From the NCBI GenBank assembly GCA_947501445.1, contig CANMVS010000004.1, positions 248,001 to 312,000 of the forward strand: DNA of 64,000 bases, given 5' to 3'. This DNA comes from an uncultured Rhizobiaceae group bacterium. GTDB taxonomy: Bacteria > Pseudomonadota > Alphaproteobacteria > Rhizobiales > Rhizobiaceae. Under the pieces are notes generated by a model, which was not told the DNA's origin, made no database searches, and was given only the letters and a program-made list of their open reading frames with translations. This document shows, one piece after another, positions 5,558 through 26,239 of this stretch (its first letter is position 1; the number at the start of each line of letters is the position of its first letter). Position numbers and translations under genes: made by a program.

Positions 5558-5602
5558 TAGGACAGTCGTCCTATTCAAGTCACCTTAGGACGGTTGTCCT
5601 AA
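5558..5602. promoter_or_regulatory. Pair of TetR operators (AGGAC palindromes)
   Basis: Two inverted repeats: TAGGAC-AGTC-GTCCTA at 5558-5573 and TTAGGAC-GGTT-GTCCTAA at 5585-5602. Their centres are 28 bp apart, about 2.7 helical turns. They sit directly upstream of the tetR start and are the expected operator type for a TetR dimer. Confidence 0.85.
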
Positions 5603-5855
5603 GTTGTCAATCGACCGTCGATTATTGAATAGCGGGCCATCACATTGCCAAAGAAATATTCTTGAAAGGGAAGGATTATGGCGTGAGGAACTGTTGCGAT
5701 AACACAGTGCAACATTGATGCTGGACAATTGCAGGCCAGGACCAATAACCTGATGATATCGCAGGGGTAACACCCGCCCGTTATTTTGAACCAGATTTCC
5801 ACATAGGGAAACTGCCGTTGTATCTTCTGTCCGATATACCGGGTTGGAGCCGATC

Positions 5856-7385: not shown

Positions 7386-7430
7386 AGCCGGAATTCAAAC
7401 TCTGTCGGAGGAAAAACATAGAAACACTTT

Positions 7431-7450
7431 GCATTTTTTGGCAAAAATGC
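7431..7450. promoter_or_regulatory. Putative DeoR-family operator upstream of its own gene
   Basis: A 20-bp palindrome: arms GCATTTTT and AAAAATGC around TGGC, 31 bp before the deoR-family start. Its centre contains TTTGCCAAA on the minus strand, the same word found in front of the downstream FAD enzyme, which suggests one regulator for both. Confidence 0.55.
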
Positions 7451-7481
7451 CCAATTTGCTCTTATGCAAAGGAAATTGCCC

Positions 7482-8240: not shown

Positions 8241-8285
8241 GCCAAATTTAGAAATAAATTGCCAAGTTTTGCCAAATATGCCATG
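8230..8285. promoter_or_regulatory. Phased GCCAA repeats before the FAD/GcvT enzyme gene
   Basis: GCCAA occurs at 8232, 8241, 8261 and 8271, spacings of 9, 20 and 10 bp, so all lie on about one helical face. The last is within TTTTGCCAAA, matching the centre of the palindrome before the DeoR gene. DeoR-family proteins often bind such phased direct repeats. Confidence 0.5.
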
Positions 8286-8322
8286 AGCAACAGGCATTGG
8301 TATTGAAATTTGGAGAACAGCA

Positions 8323-10779: not shown

Positions 10780-10796
10780 TGCGGATCCGGGTTGTT

Positions 10797-10816
10797 CAGA
10801 GCAATTCAGGTTTTCA
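10797..10816 (-). repeat. Edge fragment of the dispersed element
   Basis: CAGAGCAATTCAGGTTTT matches one end of the ~100-bp dispersed element, but the rest is missing. A short tandem word, CTGTGACATGAAA-like, appears twice just downstream (about 10843 and 10858) before the AraC-family gene. Confidence 0.5.
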
Positions 10817-10922
10817 ATTCAGCAAGATTTGTGAAACCAGCCTGTGACATGAAATCCTGTGACATGAAAGCAGTGGTGGAAAGCCACTGTCTGGATACAC
10901 TGAGCAAAACCGGGATCATACC

Positions 10923-11762
10923 ATGCCAACCCAATATGAACGGCGCATTCTTCGCGTATTGCAATATATCGATGACAATCCGGCGGCGGATCTGTCACTC
11001 GATGCGCTTGCAGATATCGCGGCCATGTCGCGGTTTCACTGGCATCGTGTATTCCAGGCGATGACCGGTGAAACATGCGCCCAGACGGTTCGACGTATAC
11101 GCATGTTGAAAGCTGCCAGATGGCTGGCCTTTGAAAACGGCGCAATTGCGCAGGTTGCAGAACGTGTCGGATACCCCAACGTACAGAGCTTTACCCGCGT
11201 TTTTGGCGAATACTACAAGGTACCGCCGGCTGAGTTTCGACAAGGCGATTGGGAGCACCAAATCCCGACACCAGCAGCAAAAGGAAAATTCAAAATGTTT
11301 CCGGTTGAAATCAAACAGGTCCCGTCGCTTCGCCTTGCCGCCTTGCTGCATCAGGGTGCCTATACGCTGGTAGGCCCCTGTTTTCAAAAGCTTTTCCAAT
11401 CGGCAGCGACGACCAATCTGTTGCCCCATGTCCAGGGTGTGGCAAGTGTCTATTATGACGATCCGCACAGCGTGCCAGATGCTGACCTGCGCTGTCACGC
11501 CGGTCTGGTTGTTCCGCAAAATACCAAATTGCCTGGCGATTTGGAGGATGTTTTGATGGCCGGTGGCACCTATGCCATCCTGCACTACAAGGGTGCTTAC
11601 CCGGCATTGGTCGCTGCCTATGATTTCCTGTATGGAAGCTGGCTGCCCGGTTCGGGCAGAGAGCCGAGGCACGCACCCTGTTATGAACGCTATCTCAACA
11701 GTCCTGCAGATACACCAGCATCGGACCTGCTGACAGATATCTACCTGCCACTTGCGGACTGA
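10923..11762 (+). CDS. AraC-family regulator with GyrI-like effector domain
   Basis: A 279-residue protein. Residues 1-105 hold the double AraC/XylS helix-turn-helix (SLDALADIAAMSRFHWHRVF, then IAQVAERVGYPNVQSFTRVF). From about residue 118 a GyrI/SbmC-like small-molecule-binding domain follows (VPSLRLAALLHQGAY, then AGGTYAILHYKGAY). This is the architecture of Rob/SbmC-type multidrug or gyrase-inhibitor responsive regulators. It begins 143 bp after the FAD/GcvT gene and reads toward the convergent LysR gene, so it may be transcribed alone. No operator was identified. Ligand and targets are unknown. Confidence 0.9.
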   Translation: MPTQYERRILRVLQYIDDNPAADLSLDALADIAAMSRFHWHRVFQAMTGETCAQTVRRIRMLKAARWLAFENGAIAQVAERVGYPNVQSFTRVFGEYYKVPPAEFRQGDWEHQIPTPAAKGKFKMFPVEIKQVPSLRLAALLHQGAYTLVGPCFQKLFQSAATTNLLPHVQGVASVYYDDPHSVPDADLRCHAGLVVPQNTKLPGDLEDVLMAGGTYAILHYKGAYPALVAAYDFLYGSWLPGSGREPRHAPCYERYLNSPADTPASDLLTDIYLPLAD

Positions 11763-11787
11763 AATACGCAACAGCCGCCATGCGCCA

Positions 11788-12732
11788 TTACATTGACTTG
11801 CCGTACATGGACTTGCCGTGTGCGGCCTTGAGGCAATTGACAAATTCCTTGGTTTTTCGATCCGGCTCGGGTTGCCTGCTGGTGATTGCTGCAAAGGTGC
11901 TGATGTAGCGGGTCCTTTGCGGCGCGATGGCTTTAACCTTTCCCTTTGACAGAAATGTTTCGGCAACATGATCTGCAAGGAAACCCAGATAGCAGCCCGA
12001 TTGGATAAGCAGCGACAGAGCCTCTTCTTCCTGAACACGCGCCGCACGGTGGAGGCCGAGGCTCTGGCCGGCCTTCATATTGGGTGAGTTGAAGCCAAAG
12101 CCGGCGTATTTGTACTCGGACAGATCGAATTGTGGGGATTCCATGTCTGCATCCGCGTCGAACAGCACGTGACCATCACCGCAGTAGAGTGTCATATGCT
12201 CATCATACAGCACATGATAATTCAAGGATGAAGACTGCCGGTGGACCGGAACGATACCGACCTCCATGGTGCCGTCGATCACCCGCGCTTCAATCACATT
12301 TGGCGGCTCAATGGCAATTTCCAGGGAAACTTTGGGTGCTGATTTATCATAGGCGCTGATGGCACTGTGTATGTGGGCGTGGGGGTTGGTGGTTGACTGA
12401 TCAAACAGCCCGAGACGCAGGGTACCAGCGAGATTTTCCTGAATATTGTCAACTTCCGACTGAAAGCTGTCGATTGAGCTCAACAGACGGTGCGACAGTG
12501 CCAGTACCTGTTCGCCCTCCGCAGTCAATGAAAAGCCCGATGGCCCCCGGTTGCACAGTTTGAGGCCCATGCGCACTTCCAGATCAGCAATATGTTTGGA
12601 AATTGTGGATCGTCCGATGTTCAGCTCAAGCTCGGATGCGGCAAAACCACCACATTCGGTGACAGCAACAAAAATTCGAACCAGACGTATATCAACGTCG
12701 CCAAGGCTCTTGAGTAAGGCTCGCTTTACCAC
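11788..12732 (-). CDS. LysR-family transcriptional regulator, divergent from BCCT transporter
   Basis: A 314-residue LysR protein. The winged helix occupies about residues 12-72 (VRIFVAVTECGGFAASELEL, then GRSTISKHIADLEVRMG). The substrate-binding domain follows, with a DQSTTNPHAHIHSAI segment near its start. It is transcribed divergently from the BCCT transporter gene, with a GGTT-N11-AACC inverted repeat between them, the classic LysR arrangement, so control of the transporter is likely. The C-terminus ends GKSMYGKSM, encoded by an in-frame 15-bp tandem duplication whose second copy turns TAC into the TAA stop. The inducer is probably the transported compound or a product, by analogy only. 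Confidence 0.9.
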   Translation of the reverse strand: MVKRALLKSLGDVDIRLVRIFVAVTECGGFAASELELNIGRSTISKHIADLEVRMGLKLCNRGPSGFSLTAEGEQVLALSHRLLSSIDSFQSEVDNIQENLAGTLRLGLFDQSTTNPHAHIHSAISAYDKSAPKVSLEIAIEPPNVIEARVIDGTMEVGIVPVHRQSSSLNYHVLYDEHMTLYCGDGHVLFDADADMESPQFDLSEYKYAGFGFNSPNMKAGQSLGLHRAARVQEEEALSLLIQSGCYLGFLADHVAETFLSKGKVKAIAPQRTRYISTFAAITSRQPEPDRKTKEFVNCLKAAHGKSMYGKSM

Positions 12733-12767
12733 AGAAAGTTTCCTCCCAATGATACCATATGCCTAAA

Positions 12768-12786
12768 GGTTCGTAGTTATCAAACC
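12768..12786. promoter_or_regulatory. Putative LysR box (T-N11-A type)
   Basis: GGTT-N11-AACC lies 36 bp upstream of the lysR start, within the 214-bp divergent region shared with the BCCT gene. It fits the T-N11-A interrupted dyad typical of LysR regulators. It is a single short site, so a chance match remains possible. Confidence 0.4.
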
Positions 12787-12946
12787 AAATCCATTCTGCA
12801 ATGGTGCAAGTGGGGAAGAAAAACCAAGAGTTCAAGGCCTCAAAATGTTGTGGTCTGACGACAGGAGCGCCCTGGAACAATCAAACTGCCCGGGTGCGCG
12901 AAAATAACAGCGTCGCCCGTGCAGCATAAAATGAATGGAACACATA

Positions 12947-14620
12947 ATGGCGATAGAGCCTCCTCTTTCTGATCTGCCGATCAAAACCGCCGATCGTGGT
13001 TTTTATCGCGGATTTAGCGTTGATGTGACGGTTGCAAGTAAAATTATCATCGGCTCACTGGTTGTATGGGCAATTTTCTGGCCAATACAGTCAGGTCGGG
13101 TTCTCAATGGTTTGAACGGATATATCCTGCAGAATTTTGCAAGCTGGTATGTATGGGTCGTAACCATGTTCGTCCTCGTGTGCATTGGTCTCGCGATGTG
13201 GCCGGCTGCAGGGCGGCTTAATCTTGGGCAGGACGGTGAAGGGCCGGAGTTTTCCAATTTCTCCTGGTTTTCAATGATGTTTGGTGCCGGTATTGGCGTC
13301 GGCATGCTGACATGGGCCGTGGCTGAGCCAGTCACCCATTTTGGTACAAACCCCGAAGTCATCCAGGGGCTGACCACCGGTGGTGCCGCGGATAATGTCC
13401 GCATGGCCTACAAATGGTCATTTCTTCACTGGGGGCTTGGTGCCTGGGCATGTTATGCGATTGCCGGGCTGGCTCTTGCATTTTTCAGCTACCGGCGCGG
13501 ATTACCCTTGACGATCCGCTCGTCACTGACACCGCTATTTGGCAAATCCCTGTCTGGGCGCCTTGGGCATGTCATTGATATTGTTGCTGTTGTTGCAACC
13601 ATACTGGGCGTTGCGCAGACACTGGGCTTTGGCGTGGAGCAATTTGTTGCAGGTCTGACGCGTATTGGCATCGGTGGATTAACCAATGCCGAGGGGGCGA
13701 CAACCACATTTGGCATCATCGTCGCCATTGTTGTCATTATGGGTGCTTCAACACTGTCGGCGCTTTCCGGCGTCGGCAAGGGTATCAAATGGCTCTCAAA
13801 CATCAATATGGTGCTCAGTATCGTATTATTGTCCTTTTTCATTCTGTTTGGCGCGACTTTCTTCGGTGCCAAGGCAATGATCCTTGGGCTTTGGGACTAT
13901 CTGATTGCCATGCCGGATATGAGTTTCCGTATCTGGTCATCGGATGGTGACCCCGAAAGTGTGGTGTCAAAACTGGCTGCCTGGCAGGGCGGTTGGTCAG
14001 TCTTCTACTGGGCATGGTGGATTGCATTTGCACCATTCGTCGGCCTTTTCCTGGCACGTATTTCACGCGGTCGCAGCATTCGGGAATTTGTTCTGGGTGC
14101 GATGATCGTGCCAGCGCTGATGTGCTTTGTCTGGTTTACCTGGGCCGGTGGCACTGCCATTGATCTGGAATTGAACGGTGGTGCGAACGGGTTGATCTAT
14201 GATGCACCCAATGGAGACAAGATCTTCGCAATGACCACCTTCATGCTGACACCAATCAGTGAGTTGTTGAGCTGGATGATGGCATTTTTGATCGTGGTTT
14301 TGCTGATGACGTTTCTTGTGACGTCGGCGGATTCGGCCGTGTTGATTGTCAATACGATCAATGCTGCCGGTGATGAAGGACCAAAGGCACGTCCGCATAT
14401 CCTGTTTTGGGGCACAGCACTTGGTGCTGTGGTTGCCGGTTTGCTGATCAGCGGTGGCACATCCGCCATACAGACTGCGATGGTGATTGGTGCCTTGCCA
14501 TTTTCCATCGTGATGGTTTTGATGTGCGTGGCCCTCGTCAAAGCCATTTGGAATGATGGGCGGAGAGCCGCCGCCGGTGTTCCAACACTGGCACCAACCA
14601 CCATACCGGCTGCTGAATAG
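12947..14620 (+). CDS. BCCT-family transporter (betaine/choline/carnitine type)
   Basis: A 557-residue, roughly 12-helix inner-membrane carrier. Family hallmarks are GAGIGVGMLTWAVAEPVTHF near residue 120 and the signature WAWWIAFAPFVGLFLARISRGR near residue 355, which includes the aromatic box of BCCT transporters. Substrates are quaternary or methylated ammonium compounds such as glycine betaine, choline, carnitine or DMSP, moved with Na+ or H+. The short N-terminus and lack of a long C-terminal osmosensor tail argue for a catabolic rather than purely osmotic role. The ATG at 12947 (GGAA seven bases upstream) is preferred over 12935. It is divergent from a LysR gene and followed by a strong terminator. 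Confidence 0.93.
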   Translation: MAIEPPLSDLPIKTADRGFYRGFSVDVTVASKIIIGSLVVWAIFWPIQSGRVLNGLNGYILQNFASWYVWVVTMFVLVCIGLAMWPAAGRLNLGQDGEGPEFSNFSWFSMMFGAGIGVGMLTWAVAEPVTHFGTNPEVIQGLTTGGAADNVRMAYKWSFLHWGLGAWACYAIAGLALAFFSYRRGLPLTIRSSLTPLFGKSLSGRLGHVIDIVAVVATILGVAQTLGFGVEQFVAGLTRIGIGGLTNAEGATTTFGIIVAIVVIMGASTLSALSGVGKGIKWLSNINMVLSIVLLSFFILFGATFFGAKAMILGLWDYLIAMPDMSFRIWSSDGDPESVVSKLAAWQGGWSVFYWAWWIAFAPFVGLFLARISRGRSIREFVLGAMIVPALMCFVWFTWAGGTAIDLELNGGANGLIYDAPNGDKIFAMTTFMLTPISELLSWMMAFLIVVLLMTFLVTSADSAVLIVNTINAAGDEGPKARPHILFWGTALGAVVAGLLISGGTSAIQTAMVIGALPFSIVMVLMCVALVKAIWNDGRRAAAGVPTLAPTTIPAAE

Positions 14621-14636
14621 CTCCAATCATACCAAT

Positions 14637-14677
14637 GCAAAAGGCCCTGACGGATCCGTCGGGGCCTTTTGCTTTTG
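14637..14677 (+). terminator. Rho-independent terminator after the BCCT gene
   Basis: Two 18-bp arms (14637-14654 and 14655-14672), paired except for one G-T wobble, run GCAAAAGGCC...GGCCTTTTGC and are followed by TTTT. It lies 17 bp after the stop codon. Confidence 0.9.
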
Positions 14678-14741
14678 CAGGGCCTCCTCGGTCGGTCCGC
14701 TGGCCCAAAGCCTTTGCACTACGGCAAAATTTTCCCGCAAC

Positions 14742-14932
14742 GCTTGCCAAATCGAATGAAAGAGTTACATGCGTGAAAACGCTCTAACGCGCCTTGATGT
14801 AAAATTGCCAGGTGCTTGATGGCACGGCCGCCGCTATATTGATGAATTTATTGCCTTTAGCCCTTTTCCTGCCGCAGGAAGATTGAAAATACCCATAAAG
14901 GAATGGACTGTTTATGACCGATGCCACGCCCC
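14742..14932 (+). repeat. Left copy of yghU upstream region and first codons (direct repeat)
   Basis: This 191-bp stretch is about 90% identical by eye to 24902-25092, covering the yghU leader, its ATG (here 14914) and six codons (MTDATP). After CCC the homology ends and the frame stops at TGA 14954-14956. It is a fragment of a yghU-like gene, directly repeated with the intact gene 10.2 kb away, and marks the left border of the accessory segment. Confidence 0.85.
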
Positions 14933-15015
14933 TGCGGCGCTGTACCAGGAACAGTTGACGTCAGACGCCCCCATCGAAATCGAGATGACGGTTCAGGTAT
15001 CCTGACCGCCTGATC
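14933..15015 (+). other. Gap with a possible orphan gene end
   Basis: Between the yghU fragment and the ABC ATPase stop, one frame reads AALYQEQLTSDAPIEIEMTV and then ends in a stop at about 15003. Its composition is protein-like, so it may be the tail of a gene whose front was lost when the segment was assembled. The family cannot be recognised. Confidence 0.25.
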
Positions 15016-16011
15016 TTAGCTGAAAAGTTCCTTCCAGCGGTGGCAAGCCACATTATGTTCAGTTCCGGCACTCTCAAGGACCGGTTCTTCAATTCGGCAA
15101 CGCTCTATGGCAACCGGACACCGGGTTTGAAATTTGCACCCTGGCGGTGGGTTGGTGGGCGTGGGGATTTCACCTTCGAGTTTTTGCGCTTTGCCGCGAT
15201 CATCAGGATCAAGTGATGGTATCGCCGACAGCAGCGCTTTTGTGTAGGGATGGCGAGGTCCGGAAAACAAGGTACGCGTTGGCGCGGTTTCCACGAGGCG
15301 GCCCAGATACATCACGGCAACATGATCGCAAACATGGGCGACGACGCTGAGATCGTGACTGATGAACAGGAACGTCAGCCCCATGTCCTCCTGAATGGCC
15401 TTAAGAAGATTGAGCACATCCGCCTGGATTGACACATCCAGTGCAGCAACGCTTTCATCCGCAACAATGAATTTTGGCCCGGACACCAGGGCGCGCGCGA
15501 TTGAGATACGCTGGCGTTGTCCACCGGAAAACGCATGTGGGAACCGCCGCAAGTGTTCGACGTTCAACCGGCATTTCACCGCAATTTCGCGCACGCGCTC
15601 GTCAGTTTCCGCGCGCGATTTGGTCAGACCCATGACTTCCAAAGGTTCTGCAATAATGTCGCGCACCGTCATCCGTGGGCTAAGGGCTGCGTAGGGGTCC
15701 TGAAAGATCAGCTGCGCCCGTTTGCGGTAATCCTTCAACTCTTTTTTACCCAGGTTCTTCAGTGAGTATGCGACCTCCCCATCGTCAAACAACACATCGC
15801 CTTGGCTGATGGGGGCGGCGCGCAGCATGGCGCGTCCAAGGGTGGTTTTTCCAGATCCAGACTCGCCCACAAGACCAAAGAAACTGCCCGGTGCAATCTC
15901 CAGGCTGACATTTTCAACTGCGCGTACAAAGGGGATAGGGCCGATCAAGCCGCCACGCAATCGATAGTGGACAGAAAGATTCTGTGCCGCGATCAGGGGT
16001 TTCCGGCTCAT
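15016..16011 (-). CDS. ABC transporter ATP-binding protein, OppF/DppF-type
   Basis: A 331-residue ATPase of the oligopeptide/nickel/opine importer class. Motifs are Walker A GESGSGKTT, signature FSGGQRQR, and Walker B FIVADESVAALD, where Ser replaces the usual Pro after DE. The C-terminal oligo_HPY-type Cys-rich region CKFQTRCPVAIERC may hold an iron-sulfur cluster as in related systems. It is the last gene of a five-gene minus-strand operon and overlaps the OppD-like gene by 4 bp. It pairs with that ATPase as a heterodimer at the cytoplasmic face of the permeases. Whether the substrate is a peptide or a saccharide is unresolved. Confidence 0.92.
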   Translation of the reverse strand: MSRKPLIAAQNLSVHYRLRGGLIGPIPFVRAVENVSLEIAPGSFFGLVGESGSGKTTLGRAMLRAAPISQGDVLFDDGEVAYSLKNLGKKELKDYRKRAQLIFQDPYAALSPRMTVRDIIAEPLEVMGLTKSRAETDERVREIAVKCRLNVEHLRRFPHAFSGGQRQRISIARALVSGPKFIVADESVAALDVSIQADVLNLLKAIQEDMGLTFLFISHDLSVVAHVCDHVAVMYLGRLVETAPTRTLFSGPRHPYTKALLSAIPSLDPDDRGKAQKLEGEIPTPTNPPPGCKFQTRCPVAIERCRIEEPVLESAGTEHNVACHRWKELFS

Positions 16012-17009
16012 TCGGCATCCCCTGCTCGGTCATAAAGGTGGCAAGCGGCTGCATGACCAGCATCGATTTGAGAAAACACAGGTACTTTGGCCGAACAACG
16101 TGGACCGATAAATTCCTGACAGCGGGTGTTGTAGACACATCCCGATGGTCGCTCCAGCGGGGAAGGGATGTCGCCGGGTATCGGTGTCAGCGGCGCATCA
16201 ATGTCATCCAGTGTCGGCAGCGCCGCCAGCAACCCGCGCGTATAGGGATGGGCAGGGCTGCGGATCACATCGCGAACGGTTCCCTGTTCGACCAATCGGC
16301 CAAGATACATGACCGCAACATTGTCTGCGGTTTGTGCGATCACCCCAAGGTCGTGGGTGATGAAGATGATGCCCATGCCGAATTCAGTTACGAGGTCTTT
16401 CATCAGGTCGATTACCTGTGCCTGAATGGTGACATCCAACGCGGTTGTGGGCTCGTCCGCGATCAGCAGTTTAGGCTTTGTGGACAGGGCCATCGCAATC
16501 ATGGCGCGCTGGCGCATCCCGCCGGACAACTCAAACGCATATTGGCTGAAACGCATGCTGGGGTCCGATATGCCAACCCGGTCCAGCATCTCGATAGAGA
16601 CTTCCTTGGCCTGTGATTTGGAAAAGCTGGTATGGATCAATAATTGCTCGATCATCTGGTCGCCGATGGAAATTGCGGGGGCAAAACTTGCCATTGGTTC
16701 TTGAAAAATCAACGAGATCGAGCCGCCACGCACGACCTTCATTTCGTGATCATTTTGTAACGACATAACATCGACCGGGCCATCATCGAGGTGCAACGTG
16801 ATTTTGGTGTTTTCGCCATAAACGGCGTTGCGTGGGTTCAGTTTCATCAATGACTTGGCCGTCACAGACTTGCCCGACCCACTTTCGCCAACCAACCCCA
16901 TGATCTTGCCAGCATCCAGGCTGAATGACACATCATCCACCGCGGTAATGCGGCCTTCATCGGTATCAAACTGGAGGGTCAGGTTTTCAACGTCAATCAG
17001 TCGGCTCAT
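16008..17009 (-). CDS. ABC transporter ATP-binding protein, OppD/DppD-type
   Basis: A 333-residue ATPase with Walker A GESGSGKSVT, signature LSGGMRQR and Walker B LLIADEPTTALD, ending in the oligo_HPY-type CVYNTRC region. It overlaps the permease gene upstream and the OppF-like gene downstream by 4 bp each (ATGA-type junctions), so translation is coupled across the ATPase pair and the second permease. Length and motif spacing are standard for the family. It energises the importer encoded by the same operon. Confidence 0.92.
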   Translation of the reverse strand: MSRLIDVENLTLQFDTDEGRITAVDDVSFSLDAGKIMGLVGESGSGKSVTAKSLMKLNPRNAVYGENTKITLHLDDGPVDVMSLQNDHEMKVVRGGSISLIFQEPMASFAPAISIGDQMIEQLLIHTSFSKSQAKEVSIEMLDRVGISDPSMRFSQYAFELSGGMRQRAMIAMALSTKPKLLIADEPTTALDVTIQAQVIDLMKDLVTEFGMGIIFITHDLGVIAQTADNVAVMYLGRLVEQGTVRDVIRSPAHPYTRGLLAALPTLDDIDAPLTPIPGDIPSPLERPSGCVYNTRCQEFIGPRCSAKVPVFSQIDAGHAAACHLYDRAGDAE

Positions 17010-18148
17010 TTTTTGGTATCTCCATAGGGATCGGCGGCATCGCGCAATCCGTCACCGACAAACACAAACGCCAAGACCAGGATGATGAAGAAAAACACCG
17101 GGATGAAATACCATTGGTAGTTAAGAAGGACATCTGCGCTGGTGACGTTCTGTAACATAACGCCGAGTGAATTGACGGGATCCTTCAGGCCAAGACCGAT
17201 AAAGCTCAGCGCGGTTTCAGACAGCACCATGTAGGGAAAAGAGATCACCAGATCGACGATGATGTAGCTGGTGAAGCTGGGCAACAGATGCTTGCGGACG
17301 ACGTGTCCAGGTGACGCACCGCAAAGCTTTGCTGCCAGAACATATTCCTGATTGCGCTCTGTTAACAAATGGGTGCGGACCCGTCGTGCCAGCGTTGGCC
17401 AGCCTATACACCCCAATATAATGGAGATGAAGAAAAACCTCTCCTCCGCGCTCCACGTGTCCGGAATGAATGCCGCTAATGCCAGGAACAGCGGAATGGC
17501 CGGGATTGTTCGAACCGCGTCGGTGATCATCTGGATGAACGAGTCTATCCAGCCTCCATAGAAACCGGATATCCCGCCTATGACCAAAGCCAGAACAAAC
17601 GCGATAAAGACGCCAATTGTACCAACGGCAAGAGAGGTGTTGATGGCGTGGAAGGTGCGTGAGAAGATATCTTTGCCCGTTGAATCGGTTCCAAAAAGAT
17701 GGATATACCCTTTATCCAAACCAAATAAATGGGCCGAAAAATTCATACCGGCTATCTTGTAGGAAGACCCTTTGACAAAGAACTGAACATAAAGACGCTT
17801 GTCGGTGTTTACTGTGGTTACCCATCTGAAATTGGTTTTGATTGAACGTTCCCGTTCTACTGCGTAGATAAACGGACGCACAGAGCAGCCATTGTCATCG
17901 CAGAAATGCACGAGCGTCGGAGCGCCGTTAAGATAGTCTTTGTCGCGCCCGGCAATGGTCGGATCATAGGGCGTCAGAAACGGCGCAAACAGACCCGACA
18001 AAATCAAAATAATCAGAACCCAGGCCCCGACCATAGCCGCTCTTTGTTTCTTAAACCGCGTCCAGATCAACTGACCTTGCGAGGCGGTAAAATACGCGTC
18101 CTTGGCACTTTGGTTGACAGAGGCGTCGTAGATATTGGTCTTGGTCAT
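17006..18148 (-). CDS. ABC transporter permease, OppC/DppC-type with long periplasmic insertion
   Basis: A 380-residue inner-membrane permease. A first helix (about residues 40-60) is followed by roughly 95 extra residues before the usual core. The EAA-like loop region with GASPGHVVRKHLLP and the ending FVGDGLRDAADPYG are typical. The insertion starts after LTPYDP and contains CDDNGC and RPFIYAVERER. Such extended permeases are found in importers with very large (about 650-700 residue) binding proteins, of which Sinorhizobium AgpABCD for alpha-galactosides is one I recall. It is separated from the OppB-like gene by 4 bp. The insertion may contact the binding protein. Confidence 0.9.
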   Translation of the reverse strand: MTKTNIYDASVNQSAKDAYFTASQGQLIWTRFKKQRAAMVGAWVLIILILSGLFAPFLTPYDPTIAGRDKDYLNGAPTLVHFCDDNGCSVRPFIYAVERERSIKTNFRWVTTVNTDKRLYVQFFVKGSSYKIAGMNFSAHLFGLDKGYIHLFGTDSTGKDIFSRTFHAINTSLAVGTIGVFIAFVLALVIGGISGFYGGWIDSFIQMITDAVRTIPAIPLFLALAAFIPDTWSAEERFFFISIILGCIGWPTLARRVRTHLLTERNQEYVLAAKLCGASPGHVVRKHLLPSFTSYIIVDLVISFPYMVLSETALSFIGLGLKDPVNSLGVMLQNVTSADVLLNYQWYFIPVFFFIILVLAFVFVGDGLRDAADPYGDTKK

Positions 18149-18152
18149 GTCA

Positions 18153-19157
18153 TTATCCCAATATGCTGCGACGAATGCGCGGATCGACCAGTGCCAGCAC
18201 GATATCCGTGATAAAGTTGATCGCGATGATACAGCCCGTCAGGAAAAAGATGATGGCCCCGGCAAGTTGCTGATCGTTGGACCGTGCCAGCGCCTCAATC
18301 AATAGTGATCCGGCTTCTGTGAGTGTCAGGATCAGCGCGACGATTGGAAGCTCATTGAAGATGCGGTTCAGGTCAAAGCCCAGTGAATTGATGATAGGGC
18401 TCAGGGCATGGCGCGCCGGATATCGCATCAGCAACCTGCGCCCGGACACGCCGCGCGCGGCGGCGGCGGTCACATAAAGTTTGCCAATCTCATCAGACAG
18501 CAGTGCACGCACCGTCTGGATTGCAAATGCAGTCGCGGACCAGCCAAGGATGAATACAGGCAACCAAACGTGGCCAAGAAAATCCAGGACCTTCGCGGTG
18601 TTCCAGGGCGCGTCTCGAAATTCGGGTGAGAACAAGCCCGTTAGACTGTTGCCGAATACGACGGTGGAAAACAGCATGACCATAAGGGCAAGCAGGAAAT
18701 TGGGCAGGGCCAAGCCCAGATAGCTCACCAGACGCAAGCCGTTGTTAAGAAAGGGGTTGCGCGATGTGGCGGCGATGATCCCAACAGGGATTGCGATAGC
18801 ATAAGCCAAAACAAGTGAGCCAAGGCAAATGCCGATGCTGAGCCATATTTTTTGACCTAACAACTGATTTATGTTGAGGCGCAGAATGCAGCTGTCACCA
18901 AATTCGCCTTGAAAGGCGTTAAAGAGCCACGTAGCCCAGCGTTGAAGGAACGGTTTGTGCAAACCAAGTCGAACACGTTCGAACTCAATATCAGCGATTG
19001 ATATCATCGCGCCTTGCGAGTTCTTGAACGCCAGATAGCGCTCGGCGCAATCGCCGGGCACCATTTCCATCAGTGAAAACACAATGAAAGAAACAAGGCA
19101 CAATGTGAAAAAGGCCAGTGCTGCGCGCAACGTTGCAAATCGAAGAAACTGGACCAT
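18153..19157 (-). CDS. ABC transporter permease, OppB/DppB-type
   Basis: A 334-residue inner-membrane permease with about six helices. The N-terminal FIVFSLMEMVPGD segment, the central GLALPNFLLALMVMLF helix and the EAA-type loop AARGVSGRRLLMRYPARHAL are characteristic of the OppB/DppB subfamily. It follows the binding-protein gene by 111 bp and precedes the second permease by 4 bp. The two permeases form the translocation pore. An unusual charged AERYLAFKNSQGA segment lies in the first periplasmic loop, where short-chain peptide permeases normally have a different sequence, so substrate specificity should not be assumed to be peptide. Confidence 0.91.
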   Translation of the reverse strand: MVQFLRFATLRAALAFFTLCLVSFIVFSLMEMVPGDCAERYLAFKNSQGAMISIADIEFERVRLGLHKPFLQRWATWLFNAFQGEFGDSCILRLNINQLLGQKIWLSIGICLGSLVLAYAIAIPVGIIAATSRNPFLNNGLRLVSYLGLALPNFLLALMVMLFSTVVFGNSLTGLFSPEFRDAPWNTAKVLDFLGHVWLPVFILGWSATAFAIQTVRALLSDEIGKLYVTAAAARGVSGRRLLMRYPARHALSPIINSLGFDLNRIFNELPIVALILTLTEAGSLLIEALARSNDQQLAGAIIFFLTGCIIAINFITDIVLALVDPRIRRSILG

Positions 19158-19268
19158 CTGTTCGTGCGCCCCACTGCATGGTGCGACCCGTTTGGGTTCG
19201 CCTTATTGATTTACGTTGCGGGCCAAACAGGCGGCCCGCAACATGTGCGCATTCAGTAGGTTGTGGCC

Positions 19269-21308
19269 CTATTCTTTAAGGAACCACTGCGCTGGACGGT
19301 AGGGATACGTCCGGTAATAAGCATATGACGCCGTTTTAAACGGTGTGACGTTCTTCAGCGCCGCCGAGCGATAAATCGGCTTTTGTTCTTTTACTGTGCC
19401 GATAAACAGCAGGTTTCCGGTCATGTTCTCAACCAGCTTCAAGCCCAGGGCATCAGACTCAGGCGTGCCGACTGGCGTCGCCTGGAATGCGTTGATGTCT
19501 CCCATCATGGTGTAGACATACTCCGGTGGTTTTACACCTGCGGCACCATCAGATTCAACGTATTCCCCCCACAACATCGCGGTACGCATGTTGAAGTAGT
19601 TGTCGAAGGGTGGGATGAAGATTTCAGGGTTGGCAAGAACCACGACCAACGGCACGCTTTTTTCATACATGGTGACGTCGAGCTGGTTTGAGGATTGGGC
19701 CGAGCGATATTCGTCGGTCGTAACCTCTTTGACCGTGTTGTCGATGCCAACATCACGCCAGTTCTGACCGACAAGTTCAACGATCTTAATCGACATGCCC
19801 TGGGTTGCGACCTGCAGGTTAAGCGTCAGCTTGTCACCATTTGGCAGTTCACGCGTGCCGTCACCGTCTTTGTCAACAACACCAATTTCATCCAACAGGG
19901 ACTTTGCCAGCTCCGGATCAAACTGCGCGAAATGCTGTTTCCATTTAGCTGGAATGAAATCAGGAGAGGGCGAGAACCCAACGTATTGTTGAGGCGTTCC
20001 AAGACCGAACATCACAACTTCGTTGATCTCATCCCGGTTTATGGCGACAGACATGGCCTGACGGAATTTCAGATCACCAAATACTTTGCGCTTTTCAAGA
20101 TCAGCAGACGTGACGTTGAATGCAAAGGTCGGCATCGTGATGTCAGGTTTCAGATCGACAACAAAGCCGCCCTTCTCCTGATTTTCCAATAGCAAAGGAA
20201 CATAATCGATCTGCAGCGCCTGGGCCTTGTAGTCGACTTCGCCGTTGACCAACTTCAGCAGGCGAACTTCGCTTTCTCCAACATAGAGTTCATCCATCTC
20301 ATTGATGTAAGGAAGCTGATTTCCTGCCGTATCGACCTTGTAGTAGTAAGGGTTGGCAACAAATTGGCGACCCTCAGTCGTGTCGGAAATGACGATATGG
20401 CTTTCCAAAGTGGGTGCGGCATCAAGGGGCAGATTTGCGACTTTGTCAGGATGGGACAACATGGGTGTCGGTGTGTCCATCCAGTCTGAACTGCCATAAT
20501 AGCCCTTAATAAGGTCATACCCATTCTCGAAACCGAGCGATTGGGCCAATTTGTCGGCATCCGGGTTGATGTCCGGATGATACTGCCCAAGAAAATGTTT
20601 TGGCTGGAAGCCCTGCCCATAGTGGTTTGCAAAGTGTGCCAGGAAACCCAGTTTTGGTGACGGCATATTGAAACGCACTGTTAACGGGTCGATAACGTCA
20701 ACTGTCATCGGCTCACCACCGGCCAGTAACCAGCCTTTCGGAACTTCCATTACATTGGAGTCCATCTGCAGGTTTTCGTACCAAAACTCGACATCTTCCG
20801 CACCAAACGGTTCGCCGTCCGACCACTTGTGGCCCTCACGCAGAACAAACGTCAGTTGCGTAAAGTCATCGTTCCAAGACCAGCTTTTTGCAACATTCGG
20901 CACGATCGTCGTCAGATCGTCTGCAAAGCGTACCAGATTCACGTGACGCAGTGACATGAAGTCAGACGTGCCGGCCTCTGTTGCATTGGACAGCGCATTG
21001 AACGTGCCGCCATAGCTGCCAATTGTATCATAGGGCGCCACAACCAGTGGCTCCGCTGGTAAACGATTGGCCAGGACGGGCATGTCGGGATTACCGCGGA
21101 TGCGACCATTCATTGCCGCGATGCCAGGGTTTTCTGACATCTCCAGTGTGCAGTTTGCAAGGTTCTGGAACTCAGCTAACTCATACTGCTGTGGGAATTC
21201 CCCGGCAGCAATACCCATTGGATCCGATACGGTAACGGCCGGGCAGGCCGCCATTGCGGCACCTGTCATAGCCGCCAGCGCCGCACTGGTTAAGAGTGTC
21301 TTCTTCAT
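19269..21308 (-). CDS. Periplasmic solute-binding protein, family 5 (large, ~680 residues)
   Basis: A 679-residue SBP_bac_5 protein with a Sec signal peptide (MKKTLLTSAALAAMTGAAMA). The family core is visible as the WSWNDDFTQLTFVLREGHKWSDGEPF segment near residue 150 and the KFRQAMSVAINRDEINEVV segment near 430. It is about 130 residues longer than typical peptide-binding proteins, as in AgpA-like binders for saccharides or other non-peptide ligands. It is the first gene of the importer operon. An RpiR regulator and a sulfatase-like hydrolase lie upstream in the same segment, so a phosphorylated or sulfated sugar-like ligand is one hypothesis. The ligand cannot be told from sequence. Confidence 0.9.
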   Translation of the reverse strand: MKKTLLTSAALAAMTGAAMAACPAVTVSDPMGIAAGEFPQQYELAEFQNLANCTLEMSENPGIAAMNGRIRGNPDMPVLANRLPAEPLVVAPYDTIGSYGGTFNALSNATEAGTSDFMSLRHVNLVRFADDLTTIVPNVAKSWSWNDDFTQLTFVLREGHKWSDGEPFGAEDVEFWYENLQMDSNVMEVPKGWLLAGGEPMTVDVIDPLTVRFNMPSPKLGFLAHFANHYGQGFQPKHFLGQYHPDINPDADKLAQSLGFENGYDLIKGYYGSSDWMDTPTPMLSHPDKVANLPLDAAPTLESHIVISDTTEGRQFVANPYYYKVDTAGNQLPYINEMDELYVGESEVRLLKLVNGEVDYKAQALQIDYVPLLLENQEKGGFVVDLKPDITMPTFAFNVTSADLEKRKVFGDLKFRQAMSVAINRDEINEVVMFGLGTPQQYVGFSPSPDFIPAKWKQHFAQFDPELAKSLLDEIGVVDKDGDGTRELPNGDKLTLNLQVATQGMSIKIVELVGQNWRDVGIDNTVKEVTTDEYRSAQSSNQLDVTMYEKSVPLVVVLANPEIFIPPFDNYFNMRTAMLWGEYVESDGAAGVKPPEYVYTMMGDINAFQATPVGTPESDALGLKLVENMTGNLLFIGTVKEQKPIYRSAALKNVTPFKTASYAYYRTYPYRPAQWFLKE

Positions 21309-21683
21309 TCGTGTCTCCTCGTTGGTTTTTCACGCCGTGTCCGTGATTGGATCGTTTGGAGGCTGCTTTTGTGCGTTATGCAAAGGCAGCTCCCAAATTC
21401 TCAGGGTTAGCAAGTTGTCGTAACAATTTTGTGACCCTTCTGAATTGGAGCGTTCTCATTTTTTAGGCGAAGGTGGCCAAAAAATGATTCTGCCGAGTGA
21501 ATTGCAATCAGAACATAGCGACCTTTGGAAAGGCGCCTTGTGACCCAGTGTGGAAATTAAGTAATATAACTTGCAAGATGTCAATTTTTTATTTTTTCTT
21601 GCAATGCTTCGTGAGCATGTGCCCAATGGATAAGTGAACTCAAATGGCATTCTTTCATGCTGCAAAAGGCAATTCCGGTGGTC
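21309..21683 (-). promoter_or_regulatory. Leader/promoter region of the ABC operon
   Basis: This 375-bp stretch contains no supported gene. A CGAGGAGACACGA-type ribosome-binding site (minus strand) lies just before the binding-protein start. The remainder is AT-richer than its surroundings, notably around 21560-21600, and should hold the operon promoter. No defined operator or terminator was recognised. Confidence 0.4.
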
Positions 21684-21840
21684 TATGGTTTTCTTGTTGT
21701 TGGCGGTGGATTGCTGGATCATCAGCAGCTTACGAATTGGCCGATCACGGCAGTGTCGTGCTGCTCGAAGGCGAAATCACCATAGGGTTCCACGCAACCT
21801 GCAGGTCTGCTGCCTTATATTGCGGCCCTGTCGTCCACAA
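21684..21840 (+). pseudogene. Remnant of an FAD-dependent oxidoreductase (DAO family), frameshifted and truncated
   Basis: One frame reads YGFLVVGGG. After a single-base deletion the next frame continues IAGSSAAYELADHGSVVLLE and then GFHATCRSAALY. Joined, this is the N-terminal Rossmann motif GxGxxG plus the E-x-x-x-G-x-H-x-T-x-R-S-A pattern of glycine/D-amino-acid oxidase-like enzymes. Only about 50-60 of some 400 codons remain; similarity fades after 21830. The gene was probably part of the accessory segment's original catabolic set, transcribed away from the ABC operon. Confidence 0.75.
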
Positions 21841-21876
21841 GGTCCATGCCGGGCGAAGAAACCTGTCTGATCGACC

Positions 21877-21943
21877 CAATATAAGTGACGCTTGGTATTA
21901 ACAGCAAATCTTTATACGGAGACATCTGGTCCGCTTGGTATAA
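21877..21943. repeat. CGCTTGGTAT repeats upstream of rpiR
   Basis: CGCTTGGTAT occurs at 21889-21898 and 21932-21941. The longer string AATATAAGTG-A-CGCTTGGTAT at 21878-21898 recurs downstream of rpiR. These could be RpiR operators or edges of an inserted unit. Confidence 0.55.
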
Positions 21944-22064
21944 CAACAACCGTTCAAATCGGTTTGCAACAGGCAAACAAGCGATGAATTTTTGATAAAT
22001 CCAAAGCGTATTGACTTTATGAACGTTTTATTTCTTATCCAAAAACAGTTAACAGGAGGCCTAT

Positions 22065-22958
22065 TTGATAACCAAATCATTGCGCGAACGACTTAGCAAT
22101 GCCGTGTCGTCCGCGTCAAAAGCGGACCGTGCGTTGGCGGCCTATATGTTGGCCGAACTTGGAAATCTTCCCTTCGAGACAGCCGCGAGTCTGGCAGCCA
22201 AAGTGGAAGTCAGCGAGCCTACTGTAGGGCGGTTTTGTCGTGCCATTGGTTATGATGGCTTCAAGGACCTCAAGAATAACCTGCGCAACGACATGGGAGA
22301 CCAGCCATGGCTGATTGGAGATCGGTTACGCGACCTTCAAGAACGAACAAAGGCAGGCGAGGATCAATTAACGCGGGGTCTGGAACTGGAGATGGCGGCA
22401 CTCGTCGCCGTCTATGAGGCGGCGCACACGGTGGAATGGGACCGGTTGGTCAAGCGTCTGGCACGGGCGAAGTCAGTCTTTGTTGTTGGCTTTCAGACCG
22501 AGCGCGGTATCGCGCAAATCTTTGCACATCAATTGCAATACCTTCGCGACAAAGTGCATCTGCTTGATCTGGCGAGCGGTAATTTTGCAGACTTTCTGGC
22601 GACTGAGGATACCCAAACAGCCTTGGTGATTTTTGAAGCGCGTCGATACTCCCGCAATGCCCAGCTGCTTGCCGTTGAGGCCAAGGCGGCGGGTGTCCCG
22701 GTGACGCTCATAACGGATCCCTACTGTGACTGGGGCCACAAAATCGCAGATGAGATTTTTGTCGTGCCCACATCGTTTAACCTTTTTAAGGAATCCACTG
22801 CACAGATGGCCAGTCTGGCCAATCTTCTGGTCAATAGCGTGTTCATGGAATTGGGGCCCCAGGTTGAGGTTCGCATGAACAAAGTTTCGCGGCTTTACGG
22901 CAAGTTCACCGGTCACGGTGATGACACACCCCAAAACAAGTCAGACCCAAAACAATAA
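22065..22958 (+). CDS. RpiR-family regulator with SIS domain, TTG start
   Basis: A 297-residue regulator. Residues 1-77 form the RpiR helix-turn-helix (ETAASLAAKVEVSEPTVGRF, then CRAIGYDGFKDLKNNL). From about 125 a SIS sugar-isomerase domain follows (AKSVFVVGFQTERGIAQ, LVIFEARRYSRN and VTLITDPYCDWG), which in this family senses phosphosugars or related anions. The TTG at 22065 is used as start because a perfect AGGAGG lies five bases upstream and no in-frame ATG fits. It lies between the ABC operon and the second PMH-like gene and probably controls them. The ligand may be a sugar phosphate derived from the imported compound, but that is inferred from the fold. Confidence 0.9.
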   Translation: MITKSLRERLSNAVSSASKADRALAAYMLAELGNLPFETAASLAAKVEVSEPTVGRFCRAIGYDGFKDLKNNLRNDMGDQPWLIGDRLRDLQERTKAGEDQLTRGLELEMAALVAVYEAAHTVEWDRLVKRLARAKSVFVVGFQTERGIAQIFAHQLQYLRDKVHLLDLASGNFADFLATEDTQTALVIFEARRYSRNAQLLAVEAKAAGVPVTLITDPYCDWGHKIADEIFVVPTSFNLFKESTAQMASLANLLVNSVFMELGPQVEVRMNKVSRLYGKFTGHGDDTPQNKSDPKQ

Positions 22959-23008
22959 TTCCATTGGGACGCGGCAAACATTCGGCGCGTTGAGCGCTCC
23001 CGACTTGC

Positions 23009-23044
23009 TAATACCAAGCGTCAATATAAGTGCCGCTTGGTATA
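23009..23044. repeat. Inverted CGCTTGGTAT repeat downstream of rpiR
   Basis: ATACCAAGCGTCA and TGCCGCTTGGTAT form an inverted repeat with a 7-nt loop (one mismatch). The right arm plus its leading AATATAAGTG is a direct repeat of 21878-21898. It could be a hairpin terminator between rpiR and the convergent hydrolase gene, or a mobile unit end. Confidence 0.6.
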
Positions 23045-23093
23045 ATATCCGCCACGCCTGATCCGGCCAGGAAAACCGTCGTTGCACCCAAAA

Positions 23094-24659
23094 TTATGCA
23101 ACCTTTCCGTTGGATCGAAAAGTCTTCTTGTGACGGCGTTGTTGACGCGGGCCACCTTTTGTAATTGTGTCCAGCGACAGCGTGTGATCCATATTCTTCA
23201 TGCGGTGACGCAGCATCAAACGGCTTAATCTATTCAAGTCGTTCTGATATTCAGGCCGATCGGCAACGTTTTCCTGTTCGCCGCGTTTTTCGTGGTCATA
23301 CATGATCGGTGAAAGGTCGGCGGCAAACTCCACTAAAGTAAACCGCGTCTCACGAAGTATCGCCAGCGAGGAATCGCTGGGTCCTGTCCCAAGTTCATTT
23401 TCCCACAGTGTCGGAGCTTCCGGGTCTGCAAAATCAAATTCAGAAAATGAATAGGTGCGCCAATCGTCCGGCACTTCACCACACAAGAGCGGCAGCAGGG
23501 ATCTGCCGTCCATCGAATTCGGAATTTTCTGCCCGGCCCAATCAAGAATTGTTGGCGTAATGTCGATTGTTTCTACCGGCTCCATTACCACCGCCCCGGC
23601 TCGGGCTTCATTGCCCGGTTGACGAATGACCAGCGGCGTATGGTAGGCTGCATTGTGGACCGTAAATTTACCCCAGCTATGACGATCACCCAGCATTTCA
23701 CCGTGATCGGATGTAACGATAATTAACGTATCATCGTATTGCCCCGTATCCATGAGGAACTTGATCACCCGACCAATGTGCAGGTCAACTTCGGTGACAA
23801 GTCCAAAATAGACAGAACGTAGAGCCCGAATGTTTTCATCCGTAGGCTCTAAATCCGGGAAGCCAACAACATGCTGTGCAACTGTATTGTTTGCAAGCGT
23901 TGGCCCAAAGAAGGGGTGATTGGCGATCTCGGCTTCCGGGTCGGGAAGTCGTGTTGGCAACGGAATTTTGTCAGGGTCGTACATCGTATTGAACGGGGCG
24001 GGGGCCACCAGCGGGGGGTGCGGGCGGATGTATGTGAGATGGGCGAACCAGTCCTGTCCTTTATGAGCGGGCATCATGGCCAGAAACCGGTCGGTCAGGA
24101 ACGCCGTGTCACTGTCCTCTGCACGATAGCGTGCAGGATCGTTGACTTTGGGCATCCCGCCTGTTGGCGAAACGGGCTGATGTATACTTGCGAAATTTGA
24201 AATTTCATAACCTTCGTTGATTAAATGCGAACGCCATGGGTAGGACATCTCAAACTGCATTTCGACGACTTCCTGAAAGCCGGTCATTGGGTATTCGTCA
24301 TTGTACAAAGCCGGGTCATCGGCGTGAAAGACACGTGGGTCCTGCGACGTATCGGTATAGCCGAACAACATCGGCACATAGCCCGACTTGCGCATTTCGA
24401 TCGCAATATTGGGCACGTCATGGCGAAGCGGCGTACCATTGCGTACAGAGCGATGGTTCATCGAATACTGACCGGTCAAAAGTGACGCCCGCGAAGGGCC
24501 GCATGGGTTCACTACAGAAAAGTGGCGTTGAAATGTCACCGCGTCAGCCATCAGGGCGCGCAGGTTGGGTAGGTGTAAATGCTCGGCCAATTCACCAACA
24601 ACACAATCAGCACGCAACTGGTCGATGACGATAAACAAGACGTTGTTGGTGTTGCCCAT
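23094..24659 (-). CDS. PMH-like hydrolase of the sulfatase / alkaline phosphatase superfamily (paralogue 2)
   Basis: A 521-residue paralogue of the protein at 5856-7385, with the formylglycine-type Cys at the same position (Cys53 in NPCGPSRASLLTG) and the same metal motifs (VIDQLRAD, YIRPHPPLVAP, TSDHGEMLGDRHSWGK). It differs by a longer basic C-terminal tail (RQQRRHKKTF) and by DRH instead of DHH after the metal-site Asp-His. No signal peptide, so cytoplasmic. Expected activity is hydrolysis of sulfate or phosphate/phosphonate mono- or diesters. It is convergent with rpiR and shares an accessory segment with a five-gene ABC importer, suggesting the imported ligand, or a product of it, is the substrate. 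Confidence 0.88.
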   Translation of the reverse strand: MGNTNNVLFIVIDQLRADCVVGELAEHLHLPNLRALMADAVTFQRHFSVVNPCGPSRASLLTGQYSMNHRSVRNGTPLRHDVPNIAIEMRKSGYVPMLFGYTDTSQDPRVFHADDPALYNDEYPMTGFQEVVEMQFEMSYPWRSHLINEGYEISNFASIHQPVSPTGGMPKVNDPARYRAEDSDTAFLTDRFLAMMPAHKGQDWFAHLTYIRPHPPLVAPAPFNTMYDPDKIPLPTRLPDPEAEIANHPFFGPTLANNTVAQHVVGFPDLEPTDENIRALRSVYFGLVTEVDLHIGRVIKFLMDTGQYDDTLIIVTSDHGEMLGDRHSWGKFTVHNAAYHTPLVIRQPGNEARAGAVVMEPVETIDITPTILDWAGQKIPNSMDGRSLLPLLCGEVPDDWRTYSFSEFDFADPEAPTLWENELGTGPSDSSLAILRETRFTLVEFAADLSPIMYDHEKRGEQENVADRPEYQNDLNRLSRLMLRHRMKNMDHTLSLDTITKGGPRQQRRHKKTFRSNGKVA

Positions 24660-24901
24660 GATGCGAAGCCTTTTTTTGATTCAGCGCGTGTGAATCATTG
24701 CTGTGATGCTGATTTGTTGCTGCGTTTCCGGGACGGGCTTTTACCGCTCAACTTTGGAAAATGTAAACTATGCCAGATTAGGGCGTTTTTCAAAGGTTCA
24801 ATTGCATTCGAATGTGCCTGAACACAATCCCTCCCATAGCGATGCTGCTCAGTCCGCAGCAATGTCTGCTTGACTGGAGCACAGCAAAAACTTGCCCCGG
24901 T
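24660..24901 (-). promoter_or_regulatory. Upstream region of paralogue 2, up to the right direct repeat
   Basis: This stretch of about 240 bp before the direct repeat contains no supported gene. It should hold the minus-strand promoter of the PMH-like gene. No operator resembling the CGCTTGGTAT motif was found here. Confidence 0.35.
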
Positions 24902-25092
24902 GCTTGCCAAATCGAATGAAAGAGTTACATGCGTGAAAACGCTCTTACGCGCTTTGCTGAATATTTGCCCGGGAGTTCAATGGCACAACCGCCGCTACAT
25001 TGATGAATTTATTGCCTTTAGCCCTTTTCCTGCCTCAGGAAGATTGAAAATACCCATAAAGGAATGGACTGTTTATGACCGATGCAACGCCC
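24902..25092 (+). repeat. Right copy of the yghU leader direct repeat
   Basis: This is the intact-gene copy of the ~190-bp repeat seen at 14742-14932, covering the yghU promoter/leader, ATG (25075) and first codons. The copies differ by about 16-18 substitutions and one single-base indel, mostly in the middle of the leader. Confidence 0.85.
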
Positions 25093-25950
25093 TATACCCC
25101 GCCTAAAGTGTGGAAGTGGAACAAGGAAAACGGAGGCCGTTTTGCGAGCATCAATCGCCCCATCGCCGGTCCCACCCATGACAAGGAATTGCCGGTAGGC
25201 AAGCACCCGCTGCAACTTTATTCGTTGGCAACGCCCAATGGGGTCAAAGTGACTGTAATGCTGGAAGAACTTTTGGCACTGGGCCATAGCGGCGCTGAAT
25301 ATGATGCCTGGCTGATCAAGATCAATGAGGGCGATCAGTTCAGCAGTGGCTATGTTGCTGCCAATCCAAATTCGAAAATTCCGGTGCTCGTGGATCATTC
25401 AACAGCCAAGCCGACACGGGTATTTGAATCCGGCGCAATTCTTGTCTATTTGGCGGAGAAATTTGGCGCCTTTTTACCAACTGAACCATCAGAACGTGCA
25501 GAATGTCTGTCATGGTTGTTCTGGCAAATGGGCAGCGCACCCTATCTTGGTGGTGGATTTGGCCATTTCTATGCCTATGCACCTGAAAAGTTCGAATACC
25601 CCATCGACCGGTTCGCCATGGAGGTAAAACGCCAGCTGGATGTTTTGGACCGCCAACTGGCCGAAAATGAATATATCGCCGGTGCCGATTATAGTGTTGC
25701 AGATATGGCCATCTGGCCCTGGTACGGTGCTCTTGTGTCAAATCTGGTCTATGAAGCCGCAGAGTTTTTGGAGACTCATACCTATACCCATATCAATCGC
25801 TGGACCAATCAGATAGCAGAACGCGAAGCTGTGCAGCGCGGCCGGATTGTCAATCGTGCATGGGGCGAACCGAAAAATCAGCTTCACGAACGTCACGATG
25901 CCTCAGATTTTCAAAACAGGACACAGGACAAGCTTGAGCCTGCCGAATAG
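25075..25950 (+). CDS. yghU: YghU-like glutathione S-transferase / disulfide reductase
   Basis: A 291-residue GST-fold protein closely resembling E. coli YghU over its whole length. NINRP-like INRPIAGPTHDKELPVGKHP, the TPNGVKVTVMLEELLALG thioredoxin-domain start, PNSKIPVL and FESGAILVYLAEKFG are all present, with C-terminal RIVNRAWG and HERHDASDF. The YghU group binds two glutathiones and has disulfide-bond reductase and peroxidase activity. An ATAAAGGAATGG leader precedes the ATG. Its leader and first codons are duplicated at 14742-14932. A dispersed two-hairpin repeat begins right at its stop codon. Confidence 0.94.
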   Translation: MTDATPYTPPKVWKWNKENGGRFASINRPIAGPTHDKELPVGKHPLQLYSLATPNGVKVTVMLEELLALGHSGAEYDAWLIKINEGDQFSSGYVAANPNSKIPVLVDHSTAKPTRVFESGAILVYLAEKFGAFLPTEPSERAECLSWLFWQMGSAPYLGGGFGHFYAYAPEKFEYPIDRFAMEVKRQLDVLDRQLAENEYIAGADYSVADMAIWPWYGALVSNLVYEAAEFLETHTYTHINRWTNQIAEREAVQRGRIVNRAWGEPKNQLHERHDASDFQNRTQDKLEPAE

Positions 25951-26051
25951 GACAATGCAGATTTTGACGGAATCGGTAAAACCTGAATGTATCAACAAAA
26001 TCAAAGGTCGACACCGTTGTACCGTTTCTGATAAAACGTCAAACGGCCTAG
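25950..26051 (-). repeat. Dispersed two-hairpin element, copy C
   Basis: About 100 bp starting at the yghU stop codon, carrying CAGATTTTG/AAAACCTG and CCGTTTCTGATAAAACGTC segments. Same orientation as copies A and F, opposite to B, D and E. It lies between convergent yghU and the AhpD-like gene. Confidence 0.8.
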
Positions 26052-26175
26052 CCGGATGAATTGGGATCAGGGTGCGTTGAAAAACCTGCCCTGATCTGCA
26101 TTGAAACCTATTGACCGTGTTTCCGGCAGGGCAATCAGTATTCCGGCGCGGCATATTTTAGGTCAGCGCACCTCT

Positions 26176-26239
26176 TCAACGTGCCCCTCCTCAACGTGCC
26201 CCCTCAACGTGCCCCCTCAACGTGCCCCCTCAACGTGCC
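26176..26239. repeat. 13-bp minisatellite at the end of the AhpD-like gene
   Basis: TCAACGTGCC occurs five times with starts at 26176, 26191, 26204, 26217 and 26230 (periods 15, 13, 13, 13). The last unit includes the final Ala-Arg codons and stop of the minus-strand AhpD-like gene, so each unit repeats the gene end including TGA. Confidence 0.9.

Follow-up and report, generated by a model that had tools for sequence, protein, structure and literature searches.

Gene content of the locus

The window analysed here is a stretch of 64,000 nucleotides from one contig of an uncultured Rhizobiaceae group bacterium. It contains an intact yghU gene whose leader is present a second time, in the same orientation and downstream of a BCCT transporter gene, where it breaks off soon after the startcodon (Table 1). 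The segment between the two copies encodes an ABC importer for which each of the five expected components is present, an RpiR-family regulator, a sulfatase-fold hydrolase and what is left of an FAD-dependent oxidoreductase. The importer and the regulator had been named in an earlier note on this DNA and were both recovered by Pfam, while the oxidoreductase named there was supported weakly, as a 77-aa piece matching the DAO family with an E-value of 6.7e-5, which is under the curated cut-off. For the gene which the earlier note called a PMH, Pfam confirmed the sulfatase fold, and the nearest NCBIfam model was PehA, with a score below the cut-off. Another sulfatase-fold hydrolase, 53% identical to the one between the repeats, is found at 5844-7385 in the same variable block (see below). 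Mobility genes (integrase, transposase) were not recognised by Pfam among the seven intact genes of the segment, and neither tRNA or tmRNA genes nor known RNA families (Rfam) were detected in the window.

Table 1. Features of the locus, with positions counted from the first letter of the window
Feature	Coordinates	Strand	Basis or remark
Variable interval between pdxY and CMD2	3673..26229	.	LemA stands there in 7/7 same-genus genomes
BCCT transporter gene flanking the repeat on the left, inside the variable block	12935..14620	+	Pfam and comparison
Left repeat copy	14742..14932	+	yghU leader and first six codons, truncated
RidA-family gene end, last 23 codons and stop	14934..15005	+	Joined out of frame behind the left yghU start
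ABC importer ATPase (oligo_HPY type)	15016..16011	-	Pfam
ABC importer ATPase (oligo_HPY type)	16008..17009	-	Pfam
ABC importer permease (OppC_N domain)	17006..18148	-	Pfam
ABC importer permease	18153..19157	-	Pfam
ABC importer binding protein (SBP_bac_5)	19269..21308	-	Pfam; 87% to other-genus protein
FAD-dependent oxidoreductase N-terminal remnant (DAO family), decayed	21653..21883	+	Pfam, below cut-off
RpiR-family regulator	22065..22958	+	Pfam
Sulfatase-fold hydrolase 2 (PMH of the earlier note; PehA-like, below NCBIfam cut-off)	23094..24659	-	Pfam
Right repeat copy	24902..25092	+	Leader and first six codons of intact yghU
yghU, glutathione-dependent disulfide-bond oxidoreductase, intact	25075..25950	+	NCBIfam NF008731, over cut-off
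Dispersed ~100-bp repeat copy	25943..26052	+	Right edge of the variable block

Direct repeats of the yghU leader

The same-orientation repeat of about 90% identity described in the earlier note was correct in both coordinates and identity: global alignment of the two copies gave 174 identical columns out of 192 (90.6%), with two of the 18 differing columns being gaps. A repeat scan divided the similarity into a stretch of 92% identity (14808-14931/24969-25092) and one of 84% (14721-14812/24881-24972). When the complete genome (6.8 Mb, 110 contigs) was searched with the left copy, just these two places matched, and since the right copy has an E-value of 2.2e-71 and is the sole second place genome-wide, a chance origin of the repeat can be excluded. 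It was also confirmed that the right copy leads into the intact yghU gene, and that the left copy breaks off behind the sixth yghU codon (ATG ACC GAT GCC ACG CCC).

The differences between the copies are bunched along the global alignment, with 44 identical columns being followed by 53 columns with 15 differences and a last 95 columns with three, which leaves uninterrupted identity over 44 and over 50 bases. Added together, the three longest such runs cover 130 columns, a value as high being obtained in 5e-5 of 20,000 shuffles for a measure that was picked after the pattern had been seen, and the longest run on its own gave p 0.06. Since the differences cluster, we argue against two initially identical copies of which one has been decaying freely; the pattern rather suggests that, until the left one was cut, both leaders had been under constraint.

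The left junction is a fusion of two clipped genes

Immediately behind the left yghU start is the end of a RidA-family gene, which had been overlooked in the earlier note. The junction connects yghU codon 6 to RidA codon 136, and the two frames differ. While the 24-residue stump by itself had no RidA match in Pfam, its name is based on the match with intact genes in G014 (locus L155; 95% over 22 residues) and G006 (locus L156; 91%), of which the G014 protein passes the cut-offs for the Pfam RidA-type families. These are the intact relatives in 2 of 296 other family genomes, and in a protein search of 297 family genomes the three that matched were those with the stump itself and these two genes. 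Comparison of the 24 codons gave 12 identical, 10 synonymous and two non-synonymous codons with G014, and 12, eight and four, respectively, with G006. As free drift over a long time should have erased such a synonymous bias, the cut is young when set against the divergence of these genes. Searches at the DNA level of a plasmid collection, which cannot show absence in nature, gave no match to the left junction or to the RidA stump.

The repeats lie within a larger variable block

In all seven genomes of the same genus (G001 to G007), parts of the left flank (377-3639) and of the right flank (from 26232) are located on one contig, with the conserved pdxY (ending at 3672 in the window) and CMD2 (starting at 26230 in the window) genes on either side of LemA. 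The spacing between pdxY and CMD2 is 22.6 kb in our genome, against approximately 2.3-2.6 kb in G001, G002 and G004, and approximately 13-14 kb in G003, G005, G006 and G007; the larger spacing in these four relatives marks the interval as a recurrent insertion place. The LemA Pfam model was positive in the interval in 7/7 same-genus genomes (it also gave a hit in 6 of 14 control genomes), and the gene after LemA is in all seven genomes related by BLAST to the TPM-domain gene of G004, the one in which the domain was assigned with Pfam. In our genome, the assembly of which is rated 99% complete, LemA was found neither by protein search nor with the Pfam model, and no TPM gene was found within the window. 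In G005, G006 and G007 the interval contains an FAD/GcvT-type oxidoreductase which is ~35% identical to the product of window positions 8323-10779.

The earlier note took the repeats to bound the accessory segment, which is not the case: the accessory DNA reaches beyond them on both sides, as a variable block that extends from 3.67 (perhaps 4.5) to 26.23 kb and takes in the BCCT and yghU genes. The uncertainty on the left side concerns the part of the interval up to ~4501, which contains a CMD-family gene and may be ancestral, as G005, G006 and G007 have a close relative of this gene near pdxY. The empty site proposed in the earlier note (BCCT directly next to yghU) was found in 0/7 same-genus genomes, which is a weak test as these genomes match at just ~66-79%; at such identities the genus is too distant to test the insertion itself. 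In these genomes BCCT and yghU occur at other places: BCCT was detected elsewhere as a long DNA match in two of the seven genomes and as short matches in G006 (among the matches listed), and yghU is present in four of the seven, again at other places.

Two other types of repeat were observed in the window. The dispersed repeat of ~100 bp listed in Table 1 has further copies at 1238-1337, 1960-2063, 34983-35078, 35149-35241 and 39462-39552 (six in all), with at least 40 copies in our genome and at least 40 in G002; it was not found at an E-value of 1e-10 in the other six same-genus genomes, and did not belong to an Rfam family at the gathering threshold. A short tandem repeat with a unit of ~13 bp (CCCCCTCAACGTG) is present at 26171-26237, at the stop end of CMD2.

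Origin of the genes between the repeats

The importer binding protein shares 87% identity with its counterpart in G144, a genome of another genus (g11), and 85-89% with one in G213 of the same genus g11, where it is in two pieces on two contigs; for nine further genomes the identity is 60-69%. In contrast, its best full-length match in each of the 7/7 same-genus genomes reached just 27-32% in the protein search, with G003 having an additional match of 47% over 179 residues only, while the best plasmid-borne relative (57%) came from Ruegeria conchae. In line with this, among the matches listed for the 14.7-25.07 kb region in the seven same-genus genomes, nucleotide similarity was confined to the two ATPase genes. 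From these comparisons, the segment between the repeats is to be taken as horizontally acquired accessory DNA, and here we agree with the earlier note. The pairing of importer and hydrolase is recurrent, since a hydrolase relative (44-51% identity) adjoins the importer in 6 of these 11 other genomes, with some of the remaining loci ending at contig ends; both hydrolases of the window resemble the hydrolase adjoining the importer in six other genomes at 42-51%.

Base composition and codon usage, which the earlier note proposed to compare with the flanks, do not set the segment apart. The GC content ranges from 0.49 to 0.56 over the segment and from 0.48 to 0.58 over the window, and the distance in codon usage to 14 core genes did not exceed that obtained when genes were shuffled (p 0.46); a comparison with 10 core genes, made without such a control, gave a larger distance.

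Distribution of yghU and its neighbours

A second yghU gene was not found elsewhere in our genome at the DNA level, the one match apart from yghU itself and the left repeat copy being just 38 bases long. In a yghU tree of 108 rows, our copy was placed with G002, G003 and 15 other rows in a group that was supported but lacked internal resolution, with G001 and G004 being placed elsewhere, and such a tree would neither prove nor exclude import of yghU. We also searched 80 named yghU loci, many of which end at contig ends, for neighbours related to those in the window (E-value below 1e-15, over 38% identity). None of these loci had a relative of either hydrolase or of the RidA gene nearby, and relatives of the ATPases (38-49%) were found in five.

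The leader sequence

No match was obtained with Rfam at gathering thresholds over the 64-kb window, so that a conserved RNA leader was not recognised, and the right leader did not fold better than its shuffles (z -0.07). Consensus searches of both leader regions for a σ70 promoter and for a terminator were negative. The right leader was also aligned with the sequence preceding yghU in 107 loci, each of which offers at least 100 bases there, using 30 shuffles each. This gave no clear relative: the top z-scores of 5.3 and 4.0 came from alignments with local scores of only 14-15, in lineages that are unrelated, and the three short leader motifs searched for were not found in the 107 regions.

A search of 394 family genomes with the leader gave matches at E-values up to 0.1 in 37, our own genome being among them, and the best match outside our genome had an E-value of 1.1e-4 over 28 bases. 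This stretch (25021-25048, and its counterpart in the left copy) is 89-93% identical in three genomes of one other genus (E-values 1.1e-4, 0.0028 and 0.0029), while a fourth genome of that genus matches a different stretch of the leader. In the three genomes the 28 bases form the 3' end of an open frame of ~190-200 aa (ending in ALFLPQED-stop), without yghU being present in the surrounding 3-kb locus. Both leaders of the window can be translated into these eight residues plus stop, in a frame that is open there for just 27-28 codons. Given that 394 genomes were searched, the match was treated as chance rather than as a real relationship; on the sequence, a small gene-end remnant inside the leader is possible.

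Possible histories of the locus

As the most likely history, with chances that we consider about even, the repeat was left behind when a circle carrying a clipped yghU start was integrated one-sidedly by homology, through one crossover. Foreign DNA with the importer, RpiR and hydrolase genes would have terminated in a yghU leader cut off behind codon six, and closure of the circle would have joined this terminus to what remained of a clipped RidA gene. A single crossover of RecA type, in which the circle's ~190-bp leader paired with that of the resident yghU, would then have inserted the circle, leaving a left leader that runs into the RidA stump and a right leader that runs into intact yghU, all within a larger accessory block which occupies the LemA place of the genus. 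The circle and the single crossover are inferred, as are donor and resident leaders that were already 9% apart, a prior difference suggested by the clustering of differences as in a leader under constraint. The locus does show the feature expected of a single-crossover scar, a direct duplication in which one copy stops short at a join without homology. Against this history, crossovers are expected to be rare over just 190 bp of 91% identity, the donor circle was not found, the seven same-genus genomes yielded no empty site, and among the 80 named yghU loci there was, at the threshold given above, no genome with the hydrolase adjoining yghU.

A closely comparable layout has been described in Escherichia coli, where, in one experiment, 56 of 60 Lac- clones gave a PCR product diagnostic for duplication of part of the target and were taken as single crossovers, and 14 sequenced clones had duplications of 109-950 bp (PMC3240628). 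These were explained there by a single crossing-over with a circle from which some of the target fragment was missing, the circle most likely deriving from linear DNA that had been degraded into its homologous end and then re-circularised (PMC3240628). Both cases have an insert between direct duplications of part of the target (~190 bp here) and truncation of one copy at a non-homologous join, whereas the E. coli experiment used a designed plasmid with the target's own sequence, and ours concerns natural DNA with copies 9% apart and a circle that is inferred. A literature search for the layout seen here found no report.

Duplication followed by deletion would yield the same end structure as a single crossover. 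As the nearest rival it is conceivable, though on balance we doubt it, that two working yghU genes (duplicated, or one resident and one imported) once flanked the segment, with the left one having lost everything from codon 7 onwards to a deletion that also took most of the adjoining RidA gene. Such a deletion explains why a yghU start is joined to a RidA end, and also the constraint-like distribution of the leader differences, but none of the 80 named loci had yghU and this RidA gene side by side at the threshold used, and no second yghU was found in our genome at the DNA level. The survey of yghU loci favours neither the single crossover nor the deletion strongly. Entry of a linear fragment by homology-facilitated illegitimate recombination, with yghU homology at one end and a blunt join of yghU codon 6 to RidA at the other, would also give this layout, and the mechanism has been proposed for displaced gene modules in the T6SS gene arrays of Vibrio (PMC5361080). 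There, as here, a conserved stretch anchors the foreign genes and a piece of the old gene remains, but at our locus a gene leader serves as anchor, and what was left behind is a 5' stump rather than a whole retained gene. We think this route improbable, with just four of the 60 Lac- clones in E. coli apparently arising in this way against the large majority of duplication type (PMC3240628).

The earlier note saw the segment as a transferable catabolic island, with the flanking repeats serving excision and transfer. Integrase-borne genomic islands with att repeats likewise have accessory genes between direct repeats, and the identical runs of 44 and 50 bases around the accessory genes fit that picture, but our locus differs in having no recognised integrase, no tRNA, and a long, diverged repeat at the 5' end of a gene. 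With no mobility gene among the seven intact genes, repeats that sit within a larger variable block, no empty form found in the seven same-genus genomes and no match of the left junction in the plasmid collection, we consider the island reading highly improbable. The statement that excision would restore one yghU gene is correct on paper, as recombination between the repeats leaves an intact yghU after BCCT, and excision is possible in principle. We likewise see little chance that the segment works as a cassette without an integrase, still leaving by RecA crossover between the leaders and able to re-enter any genome having this yghU leader as a docking site.

Conclusions

The scar at this locus is real, and it is most simply read as the product of ordinary recombination, in a region where genes have been replaced repeatedly; nothing points to a dedicated mobile element. 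Repeat ends can be misleading in such regions, as the actual variable block is about twice as large as the repeats indicate and is located at the LemA place of seven relatives. The locus provides a natural example of a bacterial gene region that has been rebuilt without recognisable mobile-element enzymes, and its main use will be in the annotation of this lineage.
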